DNA of 64,000 nucleotides, taken from assembly GCF_003860525.1 (NCBI RefSeq), contig NZ_CP034161.1, forward strand, positions 496,001 through 560,000, written 5' to 3'. The stretch comes from Epilithonimonas vandammei. Its GTDB lineage: Bacteria; Bacteroidota; Bacteroidia; Flavobacteriales; Weeksellaceae. This document shows, one piece after another, positions 2 to 47,601 of the stretch. The number at the start of each line of letters is the position of its first letter. Position 1 is the first letter of the stretch. The position numbers and the translations under genes were made by a program. A model generated the notes under the pieces. The model ran no database searches and was not told the DNA's origin. It was given only the letters and a program-made list of their open reading frames with translations.

Positions 2-292
2 TTATTTTTCCTCATCTGAAGCGACTGCATACAGTTCAACTGTTTTTCGGGATTGCATCAGAAGCCTTCCTTTCTGAATTGTTGCAAATGCTGCGTAATA
101 GTAGGGCAGCCAATTGTTACTTTCCTTCGTAGCGATTTTATCAAAATCATTAGCTAATGCTGTATACTCATAAGCTGTTTTCTGTCCTTCTACGGTGGTT
201 ATTTTTTCGGTTATTGTTCTTTCGAAAGCAGTCTGCACAAATGTAGTTGCTGATTAAAAAATTAATGCTGCAGTCAAGAAAATATTTTTCAT
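2..292 (-). pseudogene. Broken secreted protein gene (TPR-like family), nonsense codon in signal peptide
   Basis: Reading leftward from an ATG at 292, the frame encodes a typical signal peptide start (M-K-N-I-F-L-T-A-A-L-I-F), then an in-frame TAA at 254-256, then continues without shift (S-A-T-T-F-V-Q-T-A-F-E-R...) to a second stop at 2-4. The remaining 78-odd residues, with N-W-L-P-Y-Y-Y-A-A-F, resemble the start of a roughly 200-residue flavobacterial secreted protein of TPR-like appearance, recalled from memory and not searched. The early stop and the short C-terminus suggest a decayed gene. A sequencing error or use of an internal GTG at 238 are alternatives. An operator-like tandem repeat lies upstream at 367-396. 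Confidence 0.55.
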
Positions 293-366
293 ATATGATT
301 AATTTATTGTTGTAAATTTCTGATTCTAAAATAGATTGCGCTTCCACTTGTATGAATTTTATTATA

Positions 367-396
367 CTGAATGGTTGTTTTTAATTGCTGAACTGT
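367..396 (-). promoter_or_regulatory. Tandem LytTR-type operator candidate
   Basis: On the minus strand ACAGTTCAG (396-388) is followed after exactly 12 bases by ACCATTCAG (375-367). This matches the AgrA/LytTR operator pattern of two 9-bp direct repeats with 21-bp spacing; the second copy has one mismatch. It lies about 75 bp upstream of the ATG at 292. The same arrangement occurs upstream of the LytS-like kinase gene at 42.6 kb. Confidence 0.45.
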
Positions 397-475
397 TTTT
401 TTTAAAAGCTCAATTTGCGATATTATAGACAGCTGAATATAAGTCTTTTATATTCTTTCTATTGTCTACTAATTA

Positions 476-700
476 TTATTGATCGCACCATTCGTTTTGT
501 CTACCCTCTCCGTGGTTAGTAAAGGAATAACTCCCACTTGCATCTGTAGTTGCTCCACCATAGGTATCCTTAAGTGTTACATTAATGTCTTTCAGCGGTT
601 TATTTCTATAAGTTACCTTTCCGGAAACAGTGGTTTGTGCCCAAATAATAAAACCAGTCAAAAGAAATAGAACTGTAATGATTCTTCCTTGCACTATCAT
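476..700 (-). pseudogene. N-terminal remnant of a carboxypeptidase-regulatory-like / TonB-receptor gene
   Basis: The 74-residue frame has a signal peptide (hydrophobic stretch about residues 7-20, ending I-W-A-Q) followed by T-V-S-G-K-V-T-Y and D-A-S-G-S-Y-S-F-T. That is the start of a CarboxypepD_reg-like beta-sandwich, found at the N-terminus of SusC/TonB-dependent receptors and other Bacteroidetes surface proteins. After S-Y-S-F-T-N the residues no longer look like the domain and a stop follows. Downstream (leftward) there is only AT-rich non-coding sequence, so the body of the gene is missing. I read it as a truncated remnant; a genuine small secreted protein is less likely. Confidence 0.5.
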
Positions 701-790
701 AATGTTAATTTTGATCCAAAGATATATCAGTTGGTAGCAATACCGAATTATTTGTTACCGAACTGTTAAAAATTATGCCCGAGCCGTCAA

Positions 791-1834: not shown

Positions 1835-2767
1835 TTAATGAAATTCCACAAGTACTTTTTTATCTACTTTCATTTTGACTTCTGAACCAATAATCAATGG
1901 TCTGTTGTCGTAAATATGGCCATTCGGGAATGCATAAACTGTTGGAAAATCATATTTTGAAACTCGGTCGGCAATCAGTTGATATGTAAAAGAATCATAG
2001 GATTCTTCGTATTCTTTATTCTCTGTTTCTTTTCCCATATTGGTCATCCCGCCAACAATTAATCCTTTGATTTTTTTGAAAACACCAGCTAATTCAAGAC
2101 TCATAATCATACGATCCAGGGCATAAAAATTTTCACCAATATCTTCTATAAATAAGATTTTATCTGTAAAATCGAAGGAATATGGTGTTCCTAAAAGTGC
2201 ATAAATCAAGGCGAGATTACCGCCCACTAAAATTCCCGAAGCCTCTCCTACTCTATTACTGGGATTCGAATTGATTTTGTATGCAAGATTTTTACCTTTC
2301 AGAATATCAAAAATCAATTCATAGCTTTCTTCTCTAACACCAAAACTGGATGTTTTGACTGTTTGTCCGTGGATAGATGCAAACCCTTTCTTCAGTAAAT
2401 AGCTTTGAATAACTGTATTGTCAGAATAACCAATATACCATTTTGGATTTTTCTTGAATTCCGTCAGTTTCAAATCCTGCAAAAGATGCTGACAACCGTA
2501 ACCACCTCTCGAAGCCCAGACTGCAGATATGTCTGGGTCATTTAAAGCCCAATTAACATCGTTTATTCGCTGTTTTTCTGTTCCAGCGTATGAATAACCG
2601 TTTTGGTATTTTGTGTAGAGATTTTCGCCTAAAACTGGTTCGTAACCTTTGGATTTGATTAATCTTAAAGTTTTATCCAATTGTGGAATCTCTACAGAAC
2701 CTGCTGGGGAAATAATGGCAATCTTAGAACCTTTTTTTAACGGTTTGGGGAAAGTAAAGTTTTGCAT
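1835..2767 (-). CDS. ldcA: Peptidase S66, LD-carboxypeptidase (muropeptide recycling)
   Basis: Expected to remove the terminal D-alanine from tetrapeptide murein fragments in the cytoplasm. The 310-residue product shows the S66 signatures: G-S-K-I-A-I-I-S-P-A-G-S near the start, R-G-G-Y-G at 87-91, nucleophile S115 in G-Y-S-D, H133-G-Q, and F-P-N-G-H-I-Y-D near the C-terminus for the catalytic histidine. I chose the ATG at 2767 because the product then begins directly at the conserved domain; the 30-residue upstream extension of the open frame (to 2857) is unlike the family. It is the first gene of a two-gene unit with yraN. Confidence 0.88.
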   Translation of the reverse strand: MQNFTFPKPLKKGSKIAIISPAGSVEIPQLDKTLRLIKSKGYEPVLGENLYTKYQNGYSYAGTEKQRINDVNWALNDPDISAVWASRGGYGCQHLLQDLKLTEFKKNPKWYIGYSDNTVIQSYLLKKGFASIHGQTVKTSSFGVREESYELIFDILKGKNLAYKINSNPSNRVGEASGILVGGNLALIYALLGTPYSFDFTDKILFIEDIGENFYALDRMIMSLELAGVFKKIKGLIVGGMTNMGKETENKEYEESYDSFTYQLIADRVSKYDFPTVYAFPNGHIYDNRPLIIGSEVKMKVDKKVLVEFH

Positions 2768-2899
2768 TGTGTTGGATTTTGAATTCAGAATTTTAAAGCA
2801 AAGGTCGCGACGATTTTTTGAATTATTGAAACTATTTCGAGGATTGTAACCGTGCAAAACTTTGTGGTAAAGACCTCAATTGTTTTACATCGTATCTGC

Positions 2900-2981
2900 A
2901 GCCCGACCTGAGCGGTTATCCTTTTTGCGAGAGGCTATGCCGAGCAAAAAGATAATAGCGGAGGGCGGAAATAGCTGCCAT
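2900..2981. repeat. Palindromic intergenic repeat, family A (copy 1)
   Basis: An imperfect long hairpin in the space between ldcA and the LysE-type gene. The left arm carries gcccga...gcgg.tatccttttt and the right arm aaaaagata.tagcgga..gcgg.aaatagct. The same two arms, with the same spelling over most bases, recur around 13,528-13,633. It contains no coding frame worth calling. Confidence 0.6.
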
Positions 2982-3032
2982 AAAAATTAATAATTTTATT
3001 ATACAACGGAGTCCAAAGATGCCCAAAACATT

Positions 3033-3710
3033 TTATCTAATTTTTGGCTGTTGTTTCTCTGCTTTCTCCAGTTTCTCTTCGAAACTGTTGAATTTTTTGA
3101 AACTTTGCAGGAAGATAAATATGCTGAAAATCACTAGAATAATGCCGACTCCTTTTCTTATTTTGTTAGCCACACGCTGATTCAGTTTGTCATGAAACTG
3201 TTTTGCCAGGATGATTTTGAACAAATCTATGAGTAAGTACGTCCCGATAACAATGCCGATGTAAAGCACAAAATCCTGAACTTTGGGATAAGCATTCCGA
3301 ACCGAAATGACGGTTACAAGCCAGAAAAGAACCACTCCAATGTTAAGAAGGTTAAGTAAAAATCCGTTGAGATAAGTCTTCAAATAATTTTGGCTAATCA
3401 GTTTTTCTTCGCCTTCCATATGCATTTTAGTCTTGGAAATCAGCATATAAAGTGCATAGATAAAGATGAGAAATGCAGAAATCTTGTAAAATCCGGGATG
3501 CTTGTCTATGAGATACACCAAGTCTGCACTGGCGTAATAACTGACGATAATACAGAGAATATCTGCCGAAACTACCCCAAAATCCAGAGCCAGAGCATGT
3601 TTTGGACCGCGGGAGAAGCTGGTTTCTATCAATAGGAAAAATATAGGTCCTATAAAGACCAGACTAAGCATTATTCCTAATCCGACAGCGTATAAAATAA
3701 GTTCGAGCAT
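3033..3710 (-). CDS. LysE/RhtB-family exporter
   Basis: A 225-residue integral membrane protein with about six hydrophobic segments and the family signature near the N-terminus (G-L-G-I-M-L-S-L-V-F-I-G-P-I-F-F-L-L). LysE-type carriers export amino acids or related small molecules; the substrate cannot be told from sequence. The C-terminal tail is charged (E-K-L-E-K-A-E-K-Q-Q-P-K) and probably cytoplasmic. It stands alone. Confidence 0.82.
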   Translation of the reverse strand: MLELILYAVGLGIMLSLVFIGPIFFLLIETSFSRGPKHALALDFGVVSADILCIIVSYYASADLVYLIDKHPGFYKISAFLIFIYALYMLISKTKMHMEGEEKLISQNYLKTYLNGFLLNLLNIGVVLFWLVTVISVRNAYPKVQDFVLYIGIVIGTYLLIDLFKIILAKQFHDKLNQRVANKIRKGVGIILVIFSIFIFLQSFKKFNSFEEKLEKAEKQQPKIR

Positions 3711-3794
3711 TCGTTTTTAATTTCGGAACCGGCTGTAAAAATAGAGATTTAAAATTTAAGAAATCCTGATAAACTTGTACTAAGTTAGATTTAT

Positions 3795-3861
3795 CTCGCA
3801 GATTTTTGTCCACTTAGCTTATTTTGGTATAATCTAGATGTGTAAAAAAATAATCTGCGAG
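3795..3861. repeat. Inverted repeat downstream of rnr
   Basis: CTCGCAGATT (3795-3804) and its exact complement AATCTGCGAG (3852-3861) bracket a 47-base AT-rich loop in the gap between rnr and the LysE-type gene. It could act as a transcription end signal for rnr or be a small repeat element. Confidence 0.4.
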
Positions 3862-3878
3862 CTTTCTAAGGATTGATT

Positions 3879-6029
3879 TTAATCAATAATTTTAAAATCG
3901 AGTTGCTTAGCAATCAAGTTAGCTTTTACTACTTTGATTTTTACTTCGTCTCCCAACTGATAGGTATTTCCTGTTCTGGACCCGACAATTGCATAATTTT
4001 TAGCATCTAGGGAATAAGAATCGTCTACCAAATCACGGAGTTTTATCATTCCCTCTGCGCCGTTTTCCGGAATCTCTACCCAGAAACCATACTCTGCAAC
4101 ACCGGAAATCACACCTGTAAAAACTTCGCCAATATGCTGTTCCATAAACTTAACCTGCATATATTTGATGGAATCTCTTTCTGCATCTGCGGCCAGACGT
4201 TCCATCGCTGAACAATGTTTCGCCTTCTCTTCCACTTCTTCTTTATTAGGCGATTTTCCACCGTCCAGATAATGCTGAAGCAATCTATGTGCTATCAGAT
4301 CCGGATAACGACGGATTGGGGATGTGAAATGAGAATAATAGTCGAAACCAAGTCCGTAATGTCCAATTGGGTCGGTAGAATACACCGCTTTACTCATACT
4401 TCGCATTGCCAATGTTTCAATCATATTTTCTTCGCCTTTTCCTTTGACATCGCTCAATAACCTGTTAAGTGATTCTGCTACTTTTTTGGTATTCGCCAAG
4501 TCCATTTTGTATCCGAAAGAAAAAACAAATTCTTGGAGTGATTTTAATTTCGCTGGATCTGGATCATCGTGAATACGATAAATGAATGTATTACCTGTCG
4601 GCTCTTTTCGTTTATTTAAAGATATAAATTCTGATACTTTTTTATTAGCCAAAAGCATAAATTCTTCAATTAAATGATTGGAATCTTTGCTGACTTTGAA
4701 ATAAACACCGATTGGATTGCTCTCGTCATCCAGATTAAATCTAACCTCGCTCCTATCAAAGGTAATGGCGCCGTTTCTGATGCGTTCGTTACGCATTATT
4801 TTGGCTAATTTATCCAATTGCAGAATTTCTTCTGTCAGGTCGCCTTGCTTGGTTTCGATTCTTTCCTGGGCTTCTTCATAAGTGAATCTTCTATCAGAAT
4901 GAATGACTGTTCTTCCAAACCACTCTTTATGAACTTTTGCTTCCTCATCCATTTCAAAAACGGCTGAAAAGGTGAATTTATCTTCGTGCGGACGCAGTGA
5001 ACAGACATCGTTACTTAGAACCTCTGGAAGCATCGGCACTACTCTATCTACCAAGTAAACGGAAGTCGCTCTGGCGTAAGCTTCGTCGTCTAGGATAGTT
5101 CCTGGTTTTACATAATGAGAAACGTCCGCAATGTGAACACCAATCTGCCAAAGTCCGTTTTCCAATTTCTGAATAGATAAGGCATCATCGAAATCCTTGG
5201 CATCTTTCGGGTCAATCGTAAATGTCAGAATATCACGCATATCCCAGCGTTTCGCCACTTCATCAGCATTGATACTTCTATCGATTTGGTCTGCATCGTG
5301 TTCTACTTCCGGTGGAAAATTATAAGGCAAACCATATTCGGCTAAAATAGAATGAATCTCGGTTTCATGTTCGCCAGGTGCGCCTAAAACGGTAATTATT
5401 TCTCCTTCGGGATTCTTGCTTCCTGGTCGCCATTCGCGCATTTTGGCGATGACTTTGTCACCATCTTCTGCGCCATTGAAATGGTTTTTACTGATGAACA
5501 TATCCGTGTTCATCGTCTTTTTATCAAAAACTACAAATCCGAAATCTTTATCCGCAATCTGCTGGAAAACCCCAACAAAAGTGTCTTTGGCTCGTTCTAA
5601 AACCTCGACCACAGAACCTTCAACTTTTTTCCCTTTGAAGTTATAAGTTACCAAAAGGACTTTGTCGCCTTGCAAAGCATCTTTTACATTTTTCTGATGA
5701 ATGAAAACATCATCGGGCATTCCGTCCACTTTTACATAAGCATTTCCGGATTGGTTGAAATCAATAATACCTGTTAAAGTACCTTCAATATTGAGATTGA
5801 CGATGTATTTTCCTTTCTCTGTTTCTTTGATTTTCTGAGTCGCCAAAAGTCTGTGAAGCGCCTGAATTACAAGCTCTCTTTGTCTTGGATTTTTGTAATC
5901 TATTCCTTCCGCAATCTGTTTGTAATTATAGATTTTGGAAGTTTTCTGATTCATAAAACGCAGAATTTTTCTTCCAATATCCTGAAGTTTCTGTTCGTTT
6001 TTATGAGATGTATGTTTTTTGTTTTTCAT
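3879..6029 (-). CDS. rnr: Ribonuclease R
   Basis: A 3'-to-5' exoribonuclease that degrades structured RNA. The 716-residue protein has an N-terminal winged-helix region (about 15-80), cold-shock domains (about 80-230), the RNB catalytic domain (about 260-590) and a C-terminal S1 domain (about 630-712). The catalytic acidic cluster is intact: D273, D279, D281 and D282 in D-P-K-D-A-K-D-F-D-D. It lacks the lysine-rich tail of the E. coli enzyme, ending shortly after the S1 domain. The gene is monocistronic here. Confidence 0.96.
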   Translation of the reverse strand: MKNKKHTSHKNEQKLQDIGRKILRFMNQKTSKIYNYKQIAEGIDYKNPRQRELVIQALHRLLATQKIKETEKGKYIVNLNIEGTLTGIIDFNQSGNAYVKVDGMPDDVFIHQKNVKDALQGDKVLLVTYNFKGKKVEGSVVEVLERAKDTFVGVFQQIADKDFGFVVFDKKTMNTDMFISKNHFNGAEDGDKVIAKMREWRPGSKNPEGEIITVLGAPGEHETEIHSILAEYGLPYNFPPEVEHDADQIDRSINADEVAKRWDMRDILTFTIDPKDAKDFDDALSIQKLENGLWQIGVHIADVSHYVKPGTILDDEAYARATSVYLVDRVVPMLPEVLSNDVCSLRPHEDKFTFSAVFEMDEEAKVHKEWFGRTVIHSDRRFTYEEAQERIETKQGDLTEEILQLDKLAKIMRNERIRNGAITFDRSEVRFNLDDESNPIGVYFKVSKDSNHLIEEFMLLANKKVSEFISLNKRKEPTGNTFIYRIHDDPDPAKLKSLQEFVFSFGYKMDLANTKKVAESLNRLLSDVKGKGEENMIETLAMRSMSKAVYSTDPIGHYGLGFDYYSHFTSPIRRYPDLIAHRLLQHYLDGGKSPNKEEVEEKAKHCSAMERLAADAERDSIKYMQVKFMEQHIGEVFTGVISGVAEYGFWVEIPENGAEGMIKLRDLVDDSYSLDAKNYAIVGSRTGNTYQLGDEVKIKVVKANLIAKQLDFKIID

Positions 6030-6046
6030 TTAATTTTAATTTTAAG

Positions 6047-6128
6047 ATGTTTAAACTTGTCTAAAAAAGTATTTAACTCATTTAAAAAAACGTTTAAACT
6101 CGTTTAAATACGTTTAAAACTTATTTAA
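6047..6128. repeat. Degenerate GTTTAAA tandem repeat
   Basis: Between the rnr start and the AlbA_2-type gene, units of the form (c)GTTTAAA recur at roughly 10-12-base steps towards the right side (cgtttaaact-cgtttaaata-cgtttaaaac-ttatttaaat), with more diverged units to the left. No coding frame. It may be a binding array, or simple slippage in AT-rich DNA. Confidence 0.4.
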
Positions 6129-6133
6129 ATATT

Positions 6134-7795
6134 TTATTTTAAGTTCCACGTACCATATTCATTACTTTCTATTGTGCCTTCTAGTCTAAGCGCAGAAAGT
6201 AAATTTGTTACCTTATTTTTCTTCTTAGCGTCAGTAAGTGCTTGAGATAATTTTGGAATAATAAAATTATCTATATCCTTTCTTTTGGCTTTACCTGATT
6301 TGGAGATAAATTCTAATATTAATTTTTTAAAATGTTTATCATCCAGACTTCTGTTATGAATGTATTCTGCCAAAAGTTCTTTGTTATCGGTGGGTTCGAG
6401 AACATGATAAGAAATATAATTACTTCCCTTTCGTCCCTCTATGAATCTCTTCTTTTTCAAGTAAGTAAATTCATCATCGCTTAGAATTTTTTTCTTTTGA
6501 ACCTTATCTAGAATTAACGTATCTTCTAATGTAATTTCTGAATTTTTAATAAGAATTTTGGCGAAGTCTTCATTGATAACCTTCCCAGTAATGGTAACTT
6601 TTACTTTTCCATCAGTAAAGTCATATTCTGGTAGAGGAAAGAATCTTTGTTTTTGAAAATTAAAAACTTTTCTAATTCCTCCACCTTGTGTTTCAATCAT
6701 TCCGAGATTCTTCATTGCTTCAACCAAAAAGGGATTTCTGTAAGATTCTTCCGGTGTATCTTTTAAAACTACATCCTCTACGGAATTGGGTAAAAATGTT
6801 CCATAATTGGAAAAAACCAAATGGTCATCTTCAAACTCTACTACATTGATACGCGATTTTTTGCTGTAATCTTGATGAGCAATAGCGTTGTTCAAAGGCT
6901 CTCGGATGACAAACGGGTCATATCTCAAAACTTCATCTGGAAATAAAGTTCCTTCCCGTAAATATCTATATTTAAGATTTCTTATTTTCTTGTAAATCTC
7001 ATCTACCGAAAGAATCAGTGGAATGGAGAAAATTTCAAAATCTTTATCCTGATTATCAACAGTTTTAAGATTCCAGCGTATCTTAACTGTAGAATCTAAA
7101 AAATGTTCCTCTTCCTCTCTACCTAAAAGAATAAAACAAGTTCTGGTAATCTTTCCTTTGATTGTTAATTTTGCTTTATTTAGAAATTTAGCATTATCCC
7201 AAGAATCGATATCATCAATATATTTTGGATTTCTTTTGATAAATTCTTGTTTTGCTTTTATAACAGCATCCTCGTCTAAATCATCAATCGTAGCATTCTC
7301 AATGATTTCTTTGGACCAATCTTCAATCACTAAATTTTCATAGATAATAGCTTCTTTTCTTTCATCTCGGATTTCAATCAAATGCTCGCCAATTCTTTGC
7401 CAAGCTTTCTTATGAGCAAAAACACATTGTCTAAAAGGATGTTTCGGAATTTTGAAAATCCAAATAGTCTTGTTTGTATCAGAAGTGATTATTTCTTCAA
7501 CTTCAAAATTATCAGAATCAAAATGTGTCAGGTTACCTAATATTCTATATTTGATATTATCAGTACTATAATCCTGAAAGTCCTGAATTCCGACTATTTT
7601 TAACGTTTTATCTTCAACTCCAATCACAAGATTTCCACCACCAGAATTAGAAATTCCTGAGATATATGAAATAATATCTTCCCCCAAACGCCCCGAAACA
7701 GAATGTTTTAAGTTTTTGAATTCTTTCCATTCACACTTTTCATCTTCTTTGGGAAAATTTTTCTTCAGGAATAGATGCAATTCATTTTCAGTCAT
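6134..7795 (-). CDS. AlbA_2 (Schlafen-type) and HATPase_c_4 domain protein
   Basis: A 553-residue protein of the group annotated as putative DNA- or RNA-binding transcriptional regulators. The N-terminal AlbA_2 region includes W-K-E-F and S-G-G-G-N-L-V-I-G-V (about 51-60). A GHKL-type ATPase fold follows, with R-E-P-L-N-N-A-I-A-H-Q-D-Y-S at 298-311 and a G-G-G-I-R-K motif later. The C-terminus is winged-helix-like and lysine-rich. The start is the ATG at 7795; a TTG nine bases upstream is open but less likely. Genes of this type are patchy in flavobacteria and sometimes lie near mobile or defence loci. No partner gene is visible, so no specific role is claimed. Confidence 0.75.
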   Translation of the reverse strand: MTENELHLFLKKNFPKEDEKCEWKEFKNLKHSVSGRLGEDIISYISGISNSGGGNLVIGVEDKTLKIVGIQDFQDYSTDNIKYRILGNLTHFDSDNFEVEEIITSDTNKTIWIFKIPKHPFRQCVFAHKKAWQRIGEHLIEIRDERKEAIIYENLVIEDWSKEIIENATIDDLDEDAVIKAKQEFIKRNPKYIDDIDSWDNAKFLNKAKLTIKGKITRTCFILLGREEEEHFLDSTVKIRWNLKTVDNQDKDFEIFSIPLILSVDEIYKKIRNLKYRYLREGTLFPDEVLRYDPFVIREPLNNAIAHQDYSKKSRINVVEFEDDHLVFSNYGTFLPNSVEDVVLKDTPEESYRNPFLVEAMKNLGMIETQGGGIRKVFNFQKQRFFPLPEYDFTDGKVKVTITGKVINEDFAKILIKNSEITLEDTLILDKVQKKKILSDDEFTYLKKKRFIEGRKGSNYISYHVLEPTDNKELLAEYIHNRSLDDKHFKKLILEFISKSGKAKRKDIDNFIIPKLSQALTDAKKKNKVTNLLSALRLEGTIESNEYGTWNLK

Positions 7796-37277: not shown

Positions 37278-37393
37278 TCGCAAAGGCACAAAAAATTATT
37301 ATCAAACCAGCTGTTTTTAAGTCGCAAATGTTCAATACTGGAAACTTTGCGACTTATCAATTGTACTAAATATTTAAATTGCGTCTTTGCGGT
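37278..37393. repeat. CGCAAAGG-type nested palindromic repeat (copy 1)
   Basis: ATCGCAAAGGCAC at the left, TTAAGTCGCAA in the middle, ACTTTGCGACTT pairing with it, and TTGCGTCTTTGCGG at the right. The outer and inner arms form nested hairpins. The layout matches copies at 40.8 and 42.0 kb. It lies in the divergent gap before pabB. Confidence 0.6.
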
Positions 37394-42553: not shown

Positions 42554-42588
42554 ACAGTTCAGTCGGATTTTTTAACAGTTCGGTCAGA
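42554..42588 (+). promoter_or_regulatory. Tandem LytTR-type operator upstream of the kinase operon
   Basis: ACAGTTCAGTCGGA (42554) and ACAGTTCGGTCAGA (42575) are direct repeats 21 bases apart. Each first nine bases fit the AgrA/LytTR pattern [TA][AC][CA]GTTN[AG][TG] exactly, with a 12-base spacer. The pair ends six bases before the TTG of the promoter, the position expected for an activator. The operon encodes a LytTR regulator, so autoregulation is likely. Confidence 0.7.
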
Positions 42589-42593
42589 TATAA

Positions 42594-42624
42594 TTGCTTA
42601 ACTTTTCTTTCTGACATAATTTTG
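42594..42624 (+). promoter_or_regulatory. Promoter of the LytS-2TM operon
   Basis: TTG at 42594-42596, a 20-base spacer, and TAATTTTG at 42617-42624; the ATG is 17 bases downstream. Confidence 0.6.
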
Positions 42625-42641
42625 AACCAAGAAATTAGAAT

Positions 42642-43961
42642 ATGAATAAGAAACCAATAATAACTCTCACGTGGATTACACTTGGCTCATCCATTTTTTT
42701 CTTTACTTTTTTCTCTGATGAGAAAACTTTGGAAAGCTTTGGTTATAACTTAGTCATTTCGGCAATGTATGCTTTTGGATTGGGCTTGAGCAATGGTTTT
42801 CTAAATGATTTCCTTAATAAAAAACTTTCTTGGACCGAACAAACCCGACTAAGAACCATTTTAGGAATTGTACTAACCGTTATTGTCAATTTTATAGTGG
42901 TTTACGGATGTAATTATATCAATTTTGTTATCATTCAAAAAGTATCCACACCTGATGAATTCTTTTCTGGCAAATATAATTTTACCAATTGGTTTATGGT
43001 CAATTTTGCTTTGATGATTTCAGCTTTTCTCCACGCCAAAGGCTTTATGGAGGAACTAAAAAAAAACACCAAACAAGAAGTTGTAGAACAGAAACTGATT
43101 GCAAAATCTGCCAACGCCCAATTCGAATCTTTGAAGAATCAATTGGATCCGCATTTTCTTTTCAATTCACTTAATGTCTTAACCGCTTTGATTGATGAAA
43201 ATCCGGAACAGGCGCAGAAATTCACCACATCGATGTCTAAGATTTACCGTTACGTTCTGGAAAAGAAAGATAAAGAAATGGTCAAAGTGGAGGATGAGAT
43301 AGAATTTGCTAAAATCTACTGTAATCTTTTGAAAACCAGATTTGAAGACAGTGTGAATTTTATTTTTGAAGTTAATAATGATGATTTACAAAAATTCGTG
43401 GTTCCACTTTCTCTGCAATTATTATTAGAAAACTGTATCAAACATAATTTCGCGACCTCATCAAAACCTTTGAACATCAGAATCTTTACGGAAGGAAAAT
43501 TCCTCTGTATAGAGAATAATCTCCAGGTAAGAGAACAGTTGAAAGAAAGTGCAGGAATCGGTTTGGCGAACATCGTTCAGCGTTATGCATTGCTTACTAA
43601 AGAAAATGTATTCATAGAAAAATCAGAACAGACCTTTAAAGTGAAAATACCAATATTAATCGAAAAAAATTCTCAAACAATGACAACTTATACATCAGAA
43701 ACCACAGAAAATGTCGCTTACGAAAGAGCGGTAAAAAGAGTAAAAGAACTGAAGGGATTCTACGGAAACTTAATCTCTTATTGTATCGTCATCCCATTTT
43801 TAGTTATCATCAATCTTTTGACTTCTCCCAAACAAATTTGGTTTTACTGGCCAATGCTAGGATGGGGAATCGGACTTGTGGCACACGGAATGACCGTCTT
43901 CGCCATCGGTAAAAACTGGGAAGAAAAGAAGATTCGTGAAATAATGAACAATCAGAAATAA
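42642..43961 (+). CDS. LytS-type sensor histidine kinase with C-terminal 2TM domain
   Basis: A 439-residue membrane kinase. Four N-terminal membrane segments lie within 1-135. The His_kinase domain carries the phospho-acceptor H171 in Q-L-D-P-H-F-L-F-N-S-L-N, and an ATPase domain follows (N-box L-L-L-E-N-C-I-K-H-N, G-box G-I-G-L-A-N-I). After residue 355 comes a 2TM domain (Y-E-R-A-V-K-R-V-K-E-L-K-G-F-Y, two helices, then G-K-N-W-E-E-K-K-I). The two next genes encode stand-alone 2TM proteins. The kinase should phosphorylate the LytTR regulator of the same operon. The stimulus is unknown. Confidence 0.9.
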   Translation: MNKKPIITLTWITLGSSIFFFTFFSDEKTLESFGYNLVISAMYAFGLGLSNGFLNDFLNKKLSWTEQTRLRTILGIVLTVIVNFIVVYGCNYINFVIIQKVSTPDEFFSGKYNFTNWFMVNFALMISAFLHAKGFMEELKKNTKQEVVEQKLIAKSANAQFESLKNQLDPHFLFNSLNVLTALIDENPEQAQKFTTSMSKIYRYVLEKKDKEMVKVEDEIEFAKIYCNLLKTRFEDSVNFIFEVNNDDLQKFVVPLSLQLLLENCIKHNFATSSKPLNIRIFTEGKFLCIENNLQVREQLKESAGIGLANIVQRYALLTKENVFIEKSEQTFKVKIPILIEKNSQTMTTYTSETTENVAYERAVKRVKELKGFYGNLISYCIVIPFLVIINLLTSPKQIWFYWPMLGWGIGLVAHGMTVFAIGKNWEEKKIREIMNNQK

Positions 43962-43979
43962 TCTTTTAAATCAATAACA

Positions 43980-44279
43980 ATGGAACATATTAATAAAGAC
44001 AATCCACGTTACGCAATGGCTGTGGAAAGGGTACAAAAAATCAAAAAATTCTATTCCGGGTTAATCGTTTTTGCAATTGTATTCGGAGTGGTTTACGGCA
44101 TCAGATTTTTCAAGCACGGATTTTCGCAGAACCTTGGCGATATGCACGTTTCCTGGATTTTTATCATCTGGGGATTGATTCTGACGATCAAAGGAGTTAA
44201 GTTATTTTTCTTTAATTCCGATTGGGAAAATGATATGATTAACAAAGAAATTAAAAAGCAAAGCAATGGAAATTATTAA
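43980..44279 (+). CDS. 2TM domain protein
   Basis: A 99-residue protein: Y-A-M-A-V-E-R-V-Q-K-I-K-K-F-Y, two membrane helices (about 28-45 and 57-75), then F-N-S-D-W-E-N-D-M-I. It matches the C-terminal domain of the upstream kinase. The next gene starts 14 bases before this one ends. Function unknown; by position it may tune or report to the kinase. Confidence 0.82.
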   Translation: MEHINKDNPRYAMAVERVQKIKKFYSGLIVFAIVFGVVYGIRFFKHGFSQNLGDMHVSWIFIIWGLILTIKGVKLFFFNSDWENDMINKEIKKQSNGNY

Positions 44280-44568
44280 TGATAAAAACGATATCCAATA
44301 TCGTGAAGCTGTAAGAAAAGTAAAACGTCTGAAAAGCTTTTACACGCATCTGACAATCTATGTTCTTGTGAATCTATTTCTTATTTTTGCTAATTGGAGC
44401 GAAATCCGGGAAGAACATAGTATTTGGAGCTGGCAGATTTGGGCGGTTCCATTCTTTTGGGGAATCGGATTGGTAGCACAAGCTGTGGGTGTTTTTTGTC
44501 CCAGATTTTTCTTCGGGAAAGATTGGGAGGATAAAAAAATCAAAGAATTAACGGAAAAGTATAAATAG
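44266..44568 (+). CDS. 2TM domain protein
   Basis: A 100-residue 2TM protein: Y-R-E-A-V-R-K-V-K-R-L-K-S-F-Y, two helices with S-I-W-S-W-Q-I-W-A-V-P between them, then F-G-K-D-W-E-D-K-K-I-K-E-L. It is closer to the kinase's own 2TM domain than to the preceding protein in the linker and the C-terminal G-K-x-W-E-x-K-K-I motif. Overlapping start with the previous gene. Confidence 0.82.
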   Translation: MEIINDKNDIQYREAVRKVKRLKSFYTHLTIYVLVNLFLIFANWSEIREEHSIWSWQIWAVPFFWGIGLVAQAVGVFCPRFFFGKDWEDKKIKELTEKYK

Positions 44569-44572
44569 TTTA

Positions 44573-44642
44573 TCGCAAAGACGCTTTAATAATTACACAG
44601 TTAAGTCACCAAGTTTCAGCATATTTTTTTTGCGGCTTAATT
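44573..44642. repeat. CGCAAAGG-type repeat, partial (copy 4)
   Basis: TTATCGCAAAGACGC at the left, TTAAGTC in the middle and TTTTTTGCGGCTTAA at the right. Less complete than the other copies. It lies between the second 2TM gene and the regulator gene. Confidence 0.45.
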
Positions 44643-44693
44643 TTTTTAATTGCCAGAAAATAGCGCTTTTATGATAAAAATAAAATTATAAAA

Positions 44694-45440
44694 ATGATAA
44701 GAACGATAATCATCGAAGACGAAAAACCAGCCGTCAGAAGACTTGAAAAATTATTAGGTTTATTTGCTGATTTAGAATTGGTTGCGAGCCTTAATTCTGT
44801 GGAAGAAGCCGTTGATTGGTTTCAGCAAAATGAACATCCACAATTGATTTTTTCGGACATTGTTCTTGGTGATGGATTATCGTTTGATATTTTTGATAAA
44901 GTCTCTACCAAAGCTTTTATCATCTATACGACGGCTTTTGATCAATACACTTTGAAAGCGTTTAAACTGAACAGTATCGATTATCTTCTGAAACCGATTG
45001 AGGAAGAAGATTTGGCAAAAGCCATTGAAAAATTCAAATCATTTCTGCCGGAAGAAGGATCGGTTAATTCACAGGAAATCAGGCAAATCGTTAGAAAAGA
45101 AAAATCGACACTTTCCAGAATTCTGGTGAAAATCGGGTACAATCTGAAAGTAGTTTCCATTAATGAAATAAGTTGTTTCTTCAGCGAGAACAAAATTGTT
45201 TACCTACAAACCAAAGAACGAACTTATCCAACGGATTTTACATTAGACGAATTGGAAAATGTTTTGGACGAAACCAAATTTTTCCGGGTAAATAGGCAAT
45301 TTATCATTAGTTCGGATTGCATCAAGAATATCCATACTTCCCCAAATTATAAAGTCGATTTGGAATTTCAACCGAACGAAGAAATTACGGTGAGCCGAGA
45401 AAGAGTGAAGGATTTTAAAGATTGGCTGGCGGGAAATTAA
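44694..45440 (+). CDS. LytTR family response regulator
   Basis: A 248-residue regulator. The receiver domain (1-120) has acidic residues E8-D9, phospho-acceptor D55 (F-S-D-I-V-L-G-D) and the lysine in L-L-K-P-I. The C-terminal LytTR DNA-binding domain (about 140-246) contains I-L-V-K-I-G-Y-N-L-K-V-V, Y-P-T-D-F-T-L-D-E-L-E and F-F-R-V-N-R-Q-F-I-I. It should bind tandem direct repeats; matching candidates lie upstream of its own operon, upstream of the small secreted protein gene that follows, and at the left end of the window. Confidence 0.93.
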   Translation: MIRTIIIEDEKPAVRRLEKLLGLFADLELVASLNSVEEAVDWFQQNEHPQLIFSDIVLGDGLSFDIFDKVSTKAFIIYTTAFDQYTLKAFKLNSIDYLLKPIEEEDLAKAIEKFKSFLPEEGSVNSQEIRQIVRKEKSTLSRILVKIGYNLKVVSINEISCFFSENKIVYLQTKERTYPTDFTLDELENVLDETKFFRVNRQFIISSDCIKNIHTSPNYKVDLEFQPNEEITVSRERVKDFKDWLAGN

Positions 45441-45445
45441 AACAA

Positions 45446-45470
45446 AACTCCCAAAATAATTCGGGAGCTT
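45446..45470. terminator. Weak terminator between the LytTR gene and the small secreted protein gene
   Basis: CTCCC and GGGAG pair around an AT-rich loop, with A- and T-rich flanks, between convergent genes. The stem is short. Confidence 0.35.
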
Positions 45471-46001: not shown

Positions 46002-46056
46002 TTGGTTATTATATAGGATTTTTGTATATTTATCATTGATAATCAGATAGTTGTTT

Positions 46057-47601
46057 ATGAATTTCAAGCATTATAACCAAAATCAGCTGGTGCTGTTTCC
46101 TTATAGTTTTGAGGAGTTGATTCCCGATAATCATCCTGTTCGGATTGTCAATGATATTTTGGAGAGGATCAATATAGACCCGCTGCTAAAAGCCTACAGC
46201 AAAGAGGGAAATCCCAGCTATCATCCCGTGATGATGCTCAAAGTGATGGTTTTTGCCTATATGAACAACATTTATTCCTCCCGGAAAATCGAAAAAGCAC
46301 TTCGCGAAAACATCAACTTTATGTGGCTCTCCAATATGAGCATCGTGGATCATAATACCGTGAACAGATTTCGGGCTCACAAGCTTGAAGCGGCTTTCAA
46401 AGATATTTTCTCGCAAGTGGTTTTGCTTCTTGCCGAAGAAGGTTTGGTAAGTTTGAAACAGGTTTTTGTGGACGGAACGAAAATCGAAGCACAGGCAAAC
46501 CGCTACACTTTTGTGTGGGCCAATGCCATTAAAACCAACAAAGAAAAGATGCTCCGCCAATTGGAAGATCTTTGGAAATATGCCCAAAGCGTGGCAAGGG
46601 AAGAGGACAAAGACCCTGAACCGCCGGAATTTAAAGAAATCAGCAAAGAAAAAATTCAGCAAACGGTAGAAAATATCAATGCCAAATTAAAAGGCGGCAA
46701 CGGTAAAACTGATTCCGACAAAAAAGCTAAAGCCAAGCTGAATTACATTAAAAATAATTTTGAGAAAAACCTCGATAAATACGAAGCTCAGGAGGCTATT
46801 TTGGCAGAGAGGAATTCCTACAGCAAGACGGATGAAGACGCCACTTTTATGAGGCTAAAGGATGACCATATGCAAAACGGACAGCTCAAACCGGCCTATA
46901 ATGCACAGATTTCTACCGAGAATCAGTTTATTGTAAATTACACGATCCATCAAGAGACCAACGACTTCAATACCCTGAAGCGTCATTTGGAGAATTTTGA
47001 GAAATTGTTCGGCAAAAAAAAACTCGGAGAATTGGAAGAACTCACTGCCGATGCGGGCTACGGAAGCGAGGAAAATTATGAATTATTGGAACAAAAAAAC
47101 ATTATTCCATTTGTAAAGTACAACACCTTCGATAAAGAGCAAAATGCCCATTATCAGGCGAAACACAAGACTTTCAGCAAAGAACACCTGCACTACAATC
47201 AGGAAAAAGATTATTACGTCTGTGCGATGGGTCAAAAGATGGAAAAAACGCACGTAAGCACTCGGAAAACCAAGACCGGTTATCCTCAAAAACTCTCCCA
47301 TTATCAGGCTAAAAATTGTGATGGATGCCCAATCAGAGGCGTTTGCCACAGTTCCAAAGAAAACCGGAGCATTGAGCGAAACCATCATTTGGAAGATTAC
47401 AAAGAAAAAATCCGGGAACTATTAAACAGCCAAGAAGGCATTAAAAAAAGAAAACAACGGTCAATTGAAGTAGAACCTGTGTTTGCACACCTGAAACATT
47501 GCAACAATTTTAAGCGATTCACACTTAGAGGTCTGAAAAAAGTAGAATTGGAGTTCGGATTGCACGCATTAGCACACAATTTAAGAAAGAAAGTTGCCTA
47601 A
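46057..47601 (+). CDS. IS1182 family transposase
   Basis: A 514-residue DDE transposase. The N-terminal DUF772 region has H-P-V-R-I-V-N-D, S-Y-H-P-V-M-M-L-K-V and S-S-R-K-I-E-K-A, and the catalytic core has V-D-G-T-K-I-E-A, L-T-A-D-A-G-Y-G-S-E-E-N and, near the end, V-E-P-V-F-A-H-L-K. C-D-G-C-P-I-R-G-V-C is the family's zinc-like motif. The frame is complete, so the element is probably active. The start is the ATG at 46057; a TTG six bases before it is open. Confidence 0.93.
   Translation: MNFKHYNQNQLVLFPYSFEELIPDNHPVRIVNDILERINIDPLLKAYSKEGNPSYHPVMMLKVMVFAYMNNIYSSRKIEKALRENINFMWLSNMSIVDHNTVNRFRAHKLEAAFKDIFSQVVLLLAEEGLVSLKQVFVDGTKIEAQANRYTFVWANAIKTNKEKMLRQLEDLWKYAQSVAREEDKDPEPPEFKEISKEKIQQTVENINAKLKGGNGKTDSDKKAKAKLNYIKNNFEKNLDKYEAQEAILAERNSYSKTDEDATFMRLKDDHMQNGQLKPAYNAQISTENQFIVNYTIHQETNDFNTLKRHLENFEKLFGKKKLGELEELTADAGYGSEENYELLEQKNIIPFVKYNTFDKEQNAHYQAKHKTFSKEHLHYNQEKDYYVCAMGQKMEKTHVSTRKTKTGYPQKLSHYQAKNCDGCPIRGVCHSSKENRSIERNHHLEDYKEKIRELLNSQEGIKKRKQRSIEVEPVFAHLKHCNNFKRFTLRGLKKVELEFGLHALAHNLRKKVA

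Follow-up and report, generated by a model that had tools for sequence, protein, structure and literature searches.

A LytS/LytTR two-component system of Weeksellaceae with a 2TM-tailed kinase, free 2TM proteins and a predicted regulon

We analysed a stretch of 64,000 nucleotides from Epilithonimonas vandammei (assembly GCF_003860525.1, contig NZ_CP034161.1, positions 496,001 to 560,000; hereafter the window), focusing on an operon that encodes a LytS-type histidine kinase ending in a 2TM domain (PF13239), two free 2TM proteins and a LytTR response regulator. By the sequence features tested this is a LytS/LytTR two-component system, and we consider it fairly probable that, in Weeksellaceae, the sensor of this system is a membrane assembly of kinase and free 2TM proteins and that its regulator activates the operon together with three target genes. 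Two observations carry this reading, namely that within Weeksellaceae free 2TM copies are seen only where the kinase has its 2TM tail, and that a composite site of direct repeats and promoter recurs with conserved geometry before the kinase and before the same few target genes. Fusions of kinase and 2TM domain are widespread in Weeksellaceae and the fusion is therefore not peculiar to the window genome, whose nearest relatives are a Chryseobacterium metagenome-assembled genome (97%) and Epilithonimonas hominis and E. caeni (94-95%).

Four proteins and the 2TM tail

Domain matches bore out the gene content given in the initial annotation, with a kinase carrying a C-terminal 2TM domain, two free 2TM proteins and a LytTR regulator. 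The kinase matches PF06580 at residues 159-237 (E 3.2e-24) and PF13239 at residues 361-436 (E 9.7e-30), and the kinase tail and the two free proteins pass the curated PF13239 cut-off of 24.8 bits with scores of 102.9, 51.7 and 85.3. These are the only three PF13239 matches in the genome (E up to 0.001), and in the four operon proteins no family passes its cut-off besides PF13239, PF06580, Response_reg and LytTR. Catalytic motifs could be read directly, with the phospho-acceptor motif PHFLFNSLN and the ATPase motifs LLLENCIKHN and GIGLANI in the kinase, and Asp55 of the regulator within FSDIVLGDG. When the kinase was aligned with those of 46 of 80 named relatives (47 sequences; the 80 relatives are the basis of all locus counts out of 80 below), His171 of the phospho-acceptor motif was invariant in 47/47, as were the tail residues Asn376 and His415. 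The mean frequency of the commonest residue was 0.914 in the core, 0.835 in the tail, 0.765 in the N-terminal transmembrane part and 0.524 in the linker before the tail, such that the tail is better conserved than the N-terminal transmembrane part. Structure predictions of moderate confidence render both the tail and the modelled free 2TM protein as a helical hairpin plus a third, C-terminal helix. A search of solved structures matched the kinase core only to the histidine kinase 6swj, and the same search with the 2TM profile gave nothing convincing (8eat, E 0.2).

The first 2TM gene overlaps the start of the second by 14 bp, and a gap of 125 bases separates the latter from the regulator gene. 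One copy of a CGCAAAGnC interspersed element sits in that gap; in the window the element occurs at 37279, 40823, 42002, 44574 and 57869 on the plus strand and at 37391 and 40936 on the minus strand. A stem-loop 3' of the regulator gene may mark the end of the operon, the scan that found it having returned 2 terminator-like sites against 1.9 in shuffles. Closely downstream of the operon stands an open reading frame (ORF) of 516 amino acids (46051-47601, plus strand), which we take to resemble a transposase.

Across the class the fusion is rare. In a class sample of 119 genomes PF13239 occurs in 24, and a frame of kinase length carries it only in the window's own genome and in G037, G052 and G078, the other 20 having only short open frames of 66-244 residues. 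The survey of kinase-2TM fusions that the initial annotation had proposed returns a design that is common in Weeksellaceae and rare over the class. That annotation also knew of no description of the design, and this stands as far as the literature goes, since the literature searched, outside which most subscription papers lie, contained no description of the system, be it under 2TM with LytTR or histidine kinase, under LytTR in Chryseobacterium or under LytTR and the TonB receptors of flavobacteria. To our knowledge, no function has been assigned to PF13239.

Operator, promoter and predicted regulon

Upstream of the kinase gene lies the LytTR-type direct repeat ACAGTTCAG-N12-ACAGTTCGG, with half-sites at 42554-42562 and 42575-42583. 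The exact repeats at 21-bp spacing were confirmed at this place, the double repeat having no second copy in the window or elsewhere in the 3.28-Mb genome and turning up in 0/100 shuffles. The promoter TTG-N20-TAATTTTG is present as read before (TTG at 42594-42596, TAATTTTG at 42617-42624), with one correction, in that the second repeat ends not six but 10 bases before the TTG (42584-42593). The -7 box of this promoter type has the consensus TAnnTTTG and spans -12 to -5 in Flavobacterium psychrophilum, according to the part of PMC9723704 consulted. If the box is placed likewise here, transcription would start near 42629 and the repeats would lie at about -75 to -46, a location that would suit an activator.

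The arrangement is conserved. Across the 80 relatives compared, a TAnnTTTG box and two TTCRG-like cores spaced by 21 bp keep near-fixed distances from the kinase start codon, and TTCRG-N16-TTCRG occurs within 200 bp upstream of the kinase in 59/80 (single-base shuffle mean 0.025); among the spacings from 9 to 59 that were tried for this pair, none besides 21 bp passed 3 relatives. The composite site TTCRG-N16-TTCRG-N10-TT-N21-TAnnTTTG, scored by its number of mismatches, precedes the kinase with 0 mismatches in 57/80, with <=1 in 68/80 and with <=2 in 70/80 relatives, and was found 0 times in reversed sequences (920,953 bases, one strand). Conservation, position and uniqueness together leave autoregulation through the LytTR direct repeat, as the initial annotation had proposed, well supported. 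A loose LytTR consensus was also tried as a genome-wide predictor and rejected, with 6 matches against 9 in the reversed control.

Within the genus the composite site reaches beyond the operon. Among 22 genomes, the window's own counted in, every one carries it, with 88 sites in all compared to 2 matches of the reversed-pattern control. One site per genome (22/88) lies at the kinase operon, as assigned by position relative to the 2TM matches. We picked 50 of the non-operon sites for inspection (36 stretches, 2 from the window's own genome and 34 from relatives, remnants in G000 and G011 included), and all 50 precede one of three genes or its remnant, namely a TonB-dependent receptor with a CarboxypepD_reg-like domain (15), a 213-residue exported protein (16) or a secreted alpha/beta hydrolase (19, the hydrolase site being found in 19/22 genomes). 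Judged by their letters, the remaining 16 sites comprise 4 chance-like ones and 12 that resemble the sites of the receptor or the 213-residue protein. The search of solved structures with the TonB receptor found none.

In the window's own genome two sites have 0 mismatches, at the operon and before the hydrolase gene (L120), and two credible sites have 1 mismatch, both on the minus strand near the start of the window (Table 1). The receptor and 213-residue genes at their operators are decayed in this genome and in G011. The hydrolase target is intact elsewhere in the window genome, unlike these decayed genes at window positions 8-787. A further match with 1 mismatch, at 3253649, was judged to be chance, lying by its letters in a short tandem repeat.

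Gene order agrees independently with the receptor and 213-residue genes as targets. Both genes lie at the kinase locus in 62/80 relatives, and in loci L021-L083 both are upstream on the same strand and within about 750 bp of the kinase in 61/63. Other genera (L212, L213, L328) show the order receptor, 213-residue gene, 2TM gene, kinase-2TM gene, 2TM genes and regulator, with operators between. A gene for an ICMT/PEMT-like membrane methyltransferase is at the locus in 59/80 relatives (L008, L013, L019 and most of L021-L083), often amid the 2TM genes; this gene is missing from the window operon. On this comparative evidence the system is predicted to regulate more than itself, with a regulon wider than the initial annotation described, and from the receptor, the exported proteins and the membrane methyltransferase one may suspect that the response concerns the envelope or nutrient uptake.

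A wider scan of 36 genomes, 1 of them a congener, found the site at the locus in 9/10 genomes with a kinase-2TM operon and in G023, whose kinase is tail-less. Since the genome has four LytTR domains, one could propose that a LytTR protein other than the operon's own regulator binds these operators. We find this very improbable, as none of the three remaining LytTR loci (near 1.23, 1.57 and 2.49 Mb) has a composite site among the matches listed with <=3 mismatches, while 10/11 scanned genomes with this locus, tailed or the tail-less G023, have the site there, and the regulator of G023 is 59% identical.

Several results nonetheless weigh against a regulon controlled in this way throughout. G030 has the operon and no site was found there, and among the other 25 genomes stray sites occur once each in G025, G032 and G048, all three without PF13239, with 4 further off-locus sites in G028, G031 and G034 and 5 reversed-control matches in the 36 genomes. 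Among 36 regulator loci the composite site (<=1 mismatch) is present in the 19 nearer ones, with a regulator >=57% identical to that of the window, in 15/19 cases and in 0/17 below that identity, which means that the operator in this form either is confined to closer relatives within the family or has diverged in the more distant ones. The site before the receptor is also weaker, with 0 mismatches in 11, <=1 in 22 and <=2 in 42 of the 60 testable relatives, and before the 213-residue gene the composite site is absent (0/61 testable relatives). A 0-mismatch match in G025, on contig C46, was discounted, having no system gene nearby (L223).

Table 1. Positions in the window of the operon, its control region and the decayed target genes.
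Feature	Position	Strand	Details
Operator-promoter before TonB-receptor remnant	717..787	-	composite site 717-783, 1 mismatch; repeats 758-787
TonB-dependent receptor remnant	476..700	-	74-amino-acid ORF; aligned to residues 1-61 of a 743-amino-acid relative
Operator-promoter before decayed 213-residue exported protein gene	326..396	-	composite site 326-392, 1 mismatch; repeats 367-396
213-residue exported protein gene remnant	8..292	-	aligned to residues 1-95
LytTR-type direct repeat operator	42554..42583	+	9-bp half-sites 21 bp apart; conservation, uniqueness
Bacteroidetes-type promoter	42594..42624	+	10 bp past operator; read from sequence
LytS-type histidine kinase	42642..43961	+	439 amino acids; N-terminal transmembrane helices, His_kinase and ATPase core, C-terminal 2TM tail
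Free 2TM protein a	43980..44279	+	99 amino acids; PF13239 E 9.5e-14
Free 2TM protein b	44266..44568	+	100 amino acids; PF13239 E 3.1e-24
Response regulator	44694..45440	+	248 amino acids; receiver (Response_reg, Asp55) and LytTR domains
Stem-loop 3' of regulator, possible operon end	45445..45470		11 pairs; terminator-like on minus strand only

Kinase tail, free 2TM copies and a possible mechanism

We compared 36 regulator loci, spread over genera and taken from 100 genomes with regulator matches, of which 22 have tailed kinases, 13 tail-less kinases and 1 no recognisable kinase. Free 2TM genes, in numbers from 0 to 4, accompany 17/22 tailed kinases and 0/13 tail-less ones (Fisher p 7e-6, kinship ignored), and in the 19 nearer loci alone 13/14 and 0/5, respectively. 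At the level of whole genomes PF13239 is matched in 0/14 of those whose kinase is tail-less, seven tailed genomes have the tail alone, and the eight others included in that check have both tail and free copies. We looked at the C-terminal ends of 10 of these 14 tail-less kinases, G023 among them, and found each to end after the ATPase domain; the calls for G188, G232, G208 and G222 represent absence of a match. G025 also has no PF13239 match, and its regulator frame carries a stop. On a tree of 44 kinase cores, with labels corrected and L255 and L323 omitted, the tail state changes 6 times, at least 5 of the changes being forced by supported branches (in 11/56 loci the motif caught no kinase for the trees). 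Because tail and free copies co-occur in this manner, hetero-assembly of the kinase tail with free 2TM proteins is likely, which lends support to the membrane-level assembly that the initial annotation had suggested.

Two other accounts of the free copies compete with co-assembly. The free 2TM proteins could be membrane outputs, acting together with the methyltransferase, with the tail merely docking the kinase where they work; their genes stand within a presumably induced operon, their copy number varies, and the methyltransferase gene is at most relatives' loci. Yet no 2TM gene was detected in any of the 14 tail-less genomes, even though the operator is kept in the tail-less loci G210, G223, G233, G193 and G198 as well as in G023, and this points to a kinase-linked role, leaving the output account unlikely in our judgement. 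Alternatively, the tail could be a plain membrane anchor and the free copies tandem duplicates under little selection, the co-occurrence reflecting local duplication only. The free genes do adjoin the tail, and 53 of the 227 free sequences, each from a different locus, share >50% identity with their own kinase's tail, but the invariant tail residues, the presence of at least one free 2TM ORF in 80/80 relatives' loci and the free 2TM gene of a split system (L255) make such an origin improbable. We also considered whether tail and free copies had recently undergone gene conversion, but the excess of identity inside a genome (0.561) over that to others (0.543; the inside value higher in 37/53) is too small for such a claim. 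Complementary histidines of tail and free proteins, as for a shared metal or haem site, proved inconsistent across the paralogues compared and were dropped.

Co-assembly of tail and free proteins also has evidence against it. Seven tailed genomes (G214, G199, G218, G180, G256, G024 and G034) have no free 2TM gene, so the tail can exist alone, and G117, from another family, pairs a free 2TM gene with a tail-less kinase. A first tree of 46 cores gave 7 tail-state changes with only 2 forced, a tree in which the tailed L316 and L217 had been counted as tail-less by a crude pattern and which had very long branches. Moreover, the kinase model is moderate (pLDDT 72.8, pTM 0.39) and does not give the packing reliably.

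Some loci show the domain in other arrangements. In L255 (G117; 2275-4420) three adjacent genes encode a free 2TM protein, a LytS kinase without tail and a LytTR regulator, a split form of the fusion. In L217 (G035; 4540-6171) the frame of the kinase stops short of the tail and two 2TM domains lie in the next frame, with an in-frame stop reported. In L252 and L253 (G106, G140) a free 2TM gene adjoins an outer-membrane receptor-like gene (weak TonB receptor match), and no kinase matches within the 8-kb stretch.

Taken together, these patterns allow a mechanism to be proposed for the co-assembling sensor. The catalytic core would be cytoplasmic, between the N-terminal transmembrane helices and the C-terminal 2TM hairpin, with the free 2TM proteins probably packing onto that hairpin and setting kinase output. 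We infer phosphotransfer to the regulator, which, once phosphorylated, would bind ACAGTTCRG-like repeats that stand in tandem shortly before promoters of the Bacteroidetes type, and would activate its own operon, the TonB-dependent receptor, the 213-residue exported protein and the secreted alpha/beta hydrolase. If the operon is under positive feedback, levels of the free 2TM partners would go up as well, and because they would rise with the operon we favour negative feedback on the kinase: it is somewhat more likely that the free partners restrain the kinase, by analogy with LiaF acting on LiaRS, and an activating or sensing role would fit nearly as well. A more specific version, which we hold only tentatively, is stoichiometric tuning, in which the positive-feedback operon makes both the tailed kinase and free copies of its domain, these copies either complete the assembly at the tail or compete for it, and the loop becomes a switch or homeostat that adjusts the envelope regulon to a signal from the membrane or the outer membrane.

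Comparison with known systems

The results link PF13239 to a single kinase family, through losses and gains of genes in several lineages, and link that kinase to a small set of targets through a conserved operator, such that the roles of 2TM proteins and kinase become directly testable. They also provide a Bacteroidetes LytTR-type operator whose promoter geometry is fixed and whose target genes are named. If tail and free copies do co-assemble, the kinase would have a control domain placed after its ATPase domain and shared with separate subunits.

LytS/LytTR two-component systems combine a PF06580 kinase with a receiver-LytTR regulator, as in BtsS/BtsR, YpdA/YpdB and LytS/LytR. The present system resembles them in the domain make-up of kinase and regulator and in its direct repeat of two 9-bp half-sites, and differs in the 2TM tail of the kinase, the free 2TM proteins and the recurrent receptor and exported-protein targets.

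A second likeness is to the LytTR regulatory systems (LRS), which, in the part of PMC6193735 consulted, comprise HdrRM, BrsRM and LRS-like Bacteroides operons, with regulators that have no receiver domain and with no kinase, and with activating repeats separated by 11-13 bp, the commonest distance from them to the downstream -35 element being 10 bp. A pair of those Bacteroides operons is the only comparable prediction that we met, and its repeats differ (PMC6193735, same part). Our operon shares with LRS, as described there, a LytTR regulator encoded with membrane proteins and a probable autoregulation, and its repeats, 12 bp apart and 10 bp before the TTG, agree in geometry alone and not in membership. 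Its membrane proteins belong to other families, and the presence of receiver domain and kinase means that the system is not an LRS.

LiaFSR, too, is a two-component system with a membrane accessory protein, LiaF, which restrains LiaRS signalling (PMC3543457, as far as the consulted part goes). Kinase, accessory protein and regulator are nevertheless of different classes from those here, and in the present system the kinase itself carries a fused copy of the accessory domain. By class definitions taken from part of PMC11237479 and partly from general knowledge, LiaFSR membership calls for a LiaF-type accessory protein with LiaS and LiaR classes, a combination lacking in the four operon proteins. 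With Pfam PF13239 itself the agreement is direct, as all three membrane domains of the operon score above its curated cut-off, and whereas elsewhere in the class sample PF13239 is mostly found in short frames, here it is also fused to a kinase.

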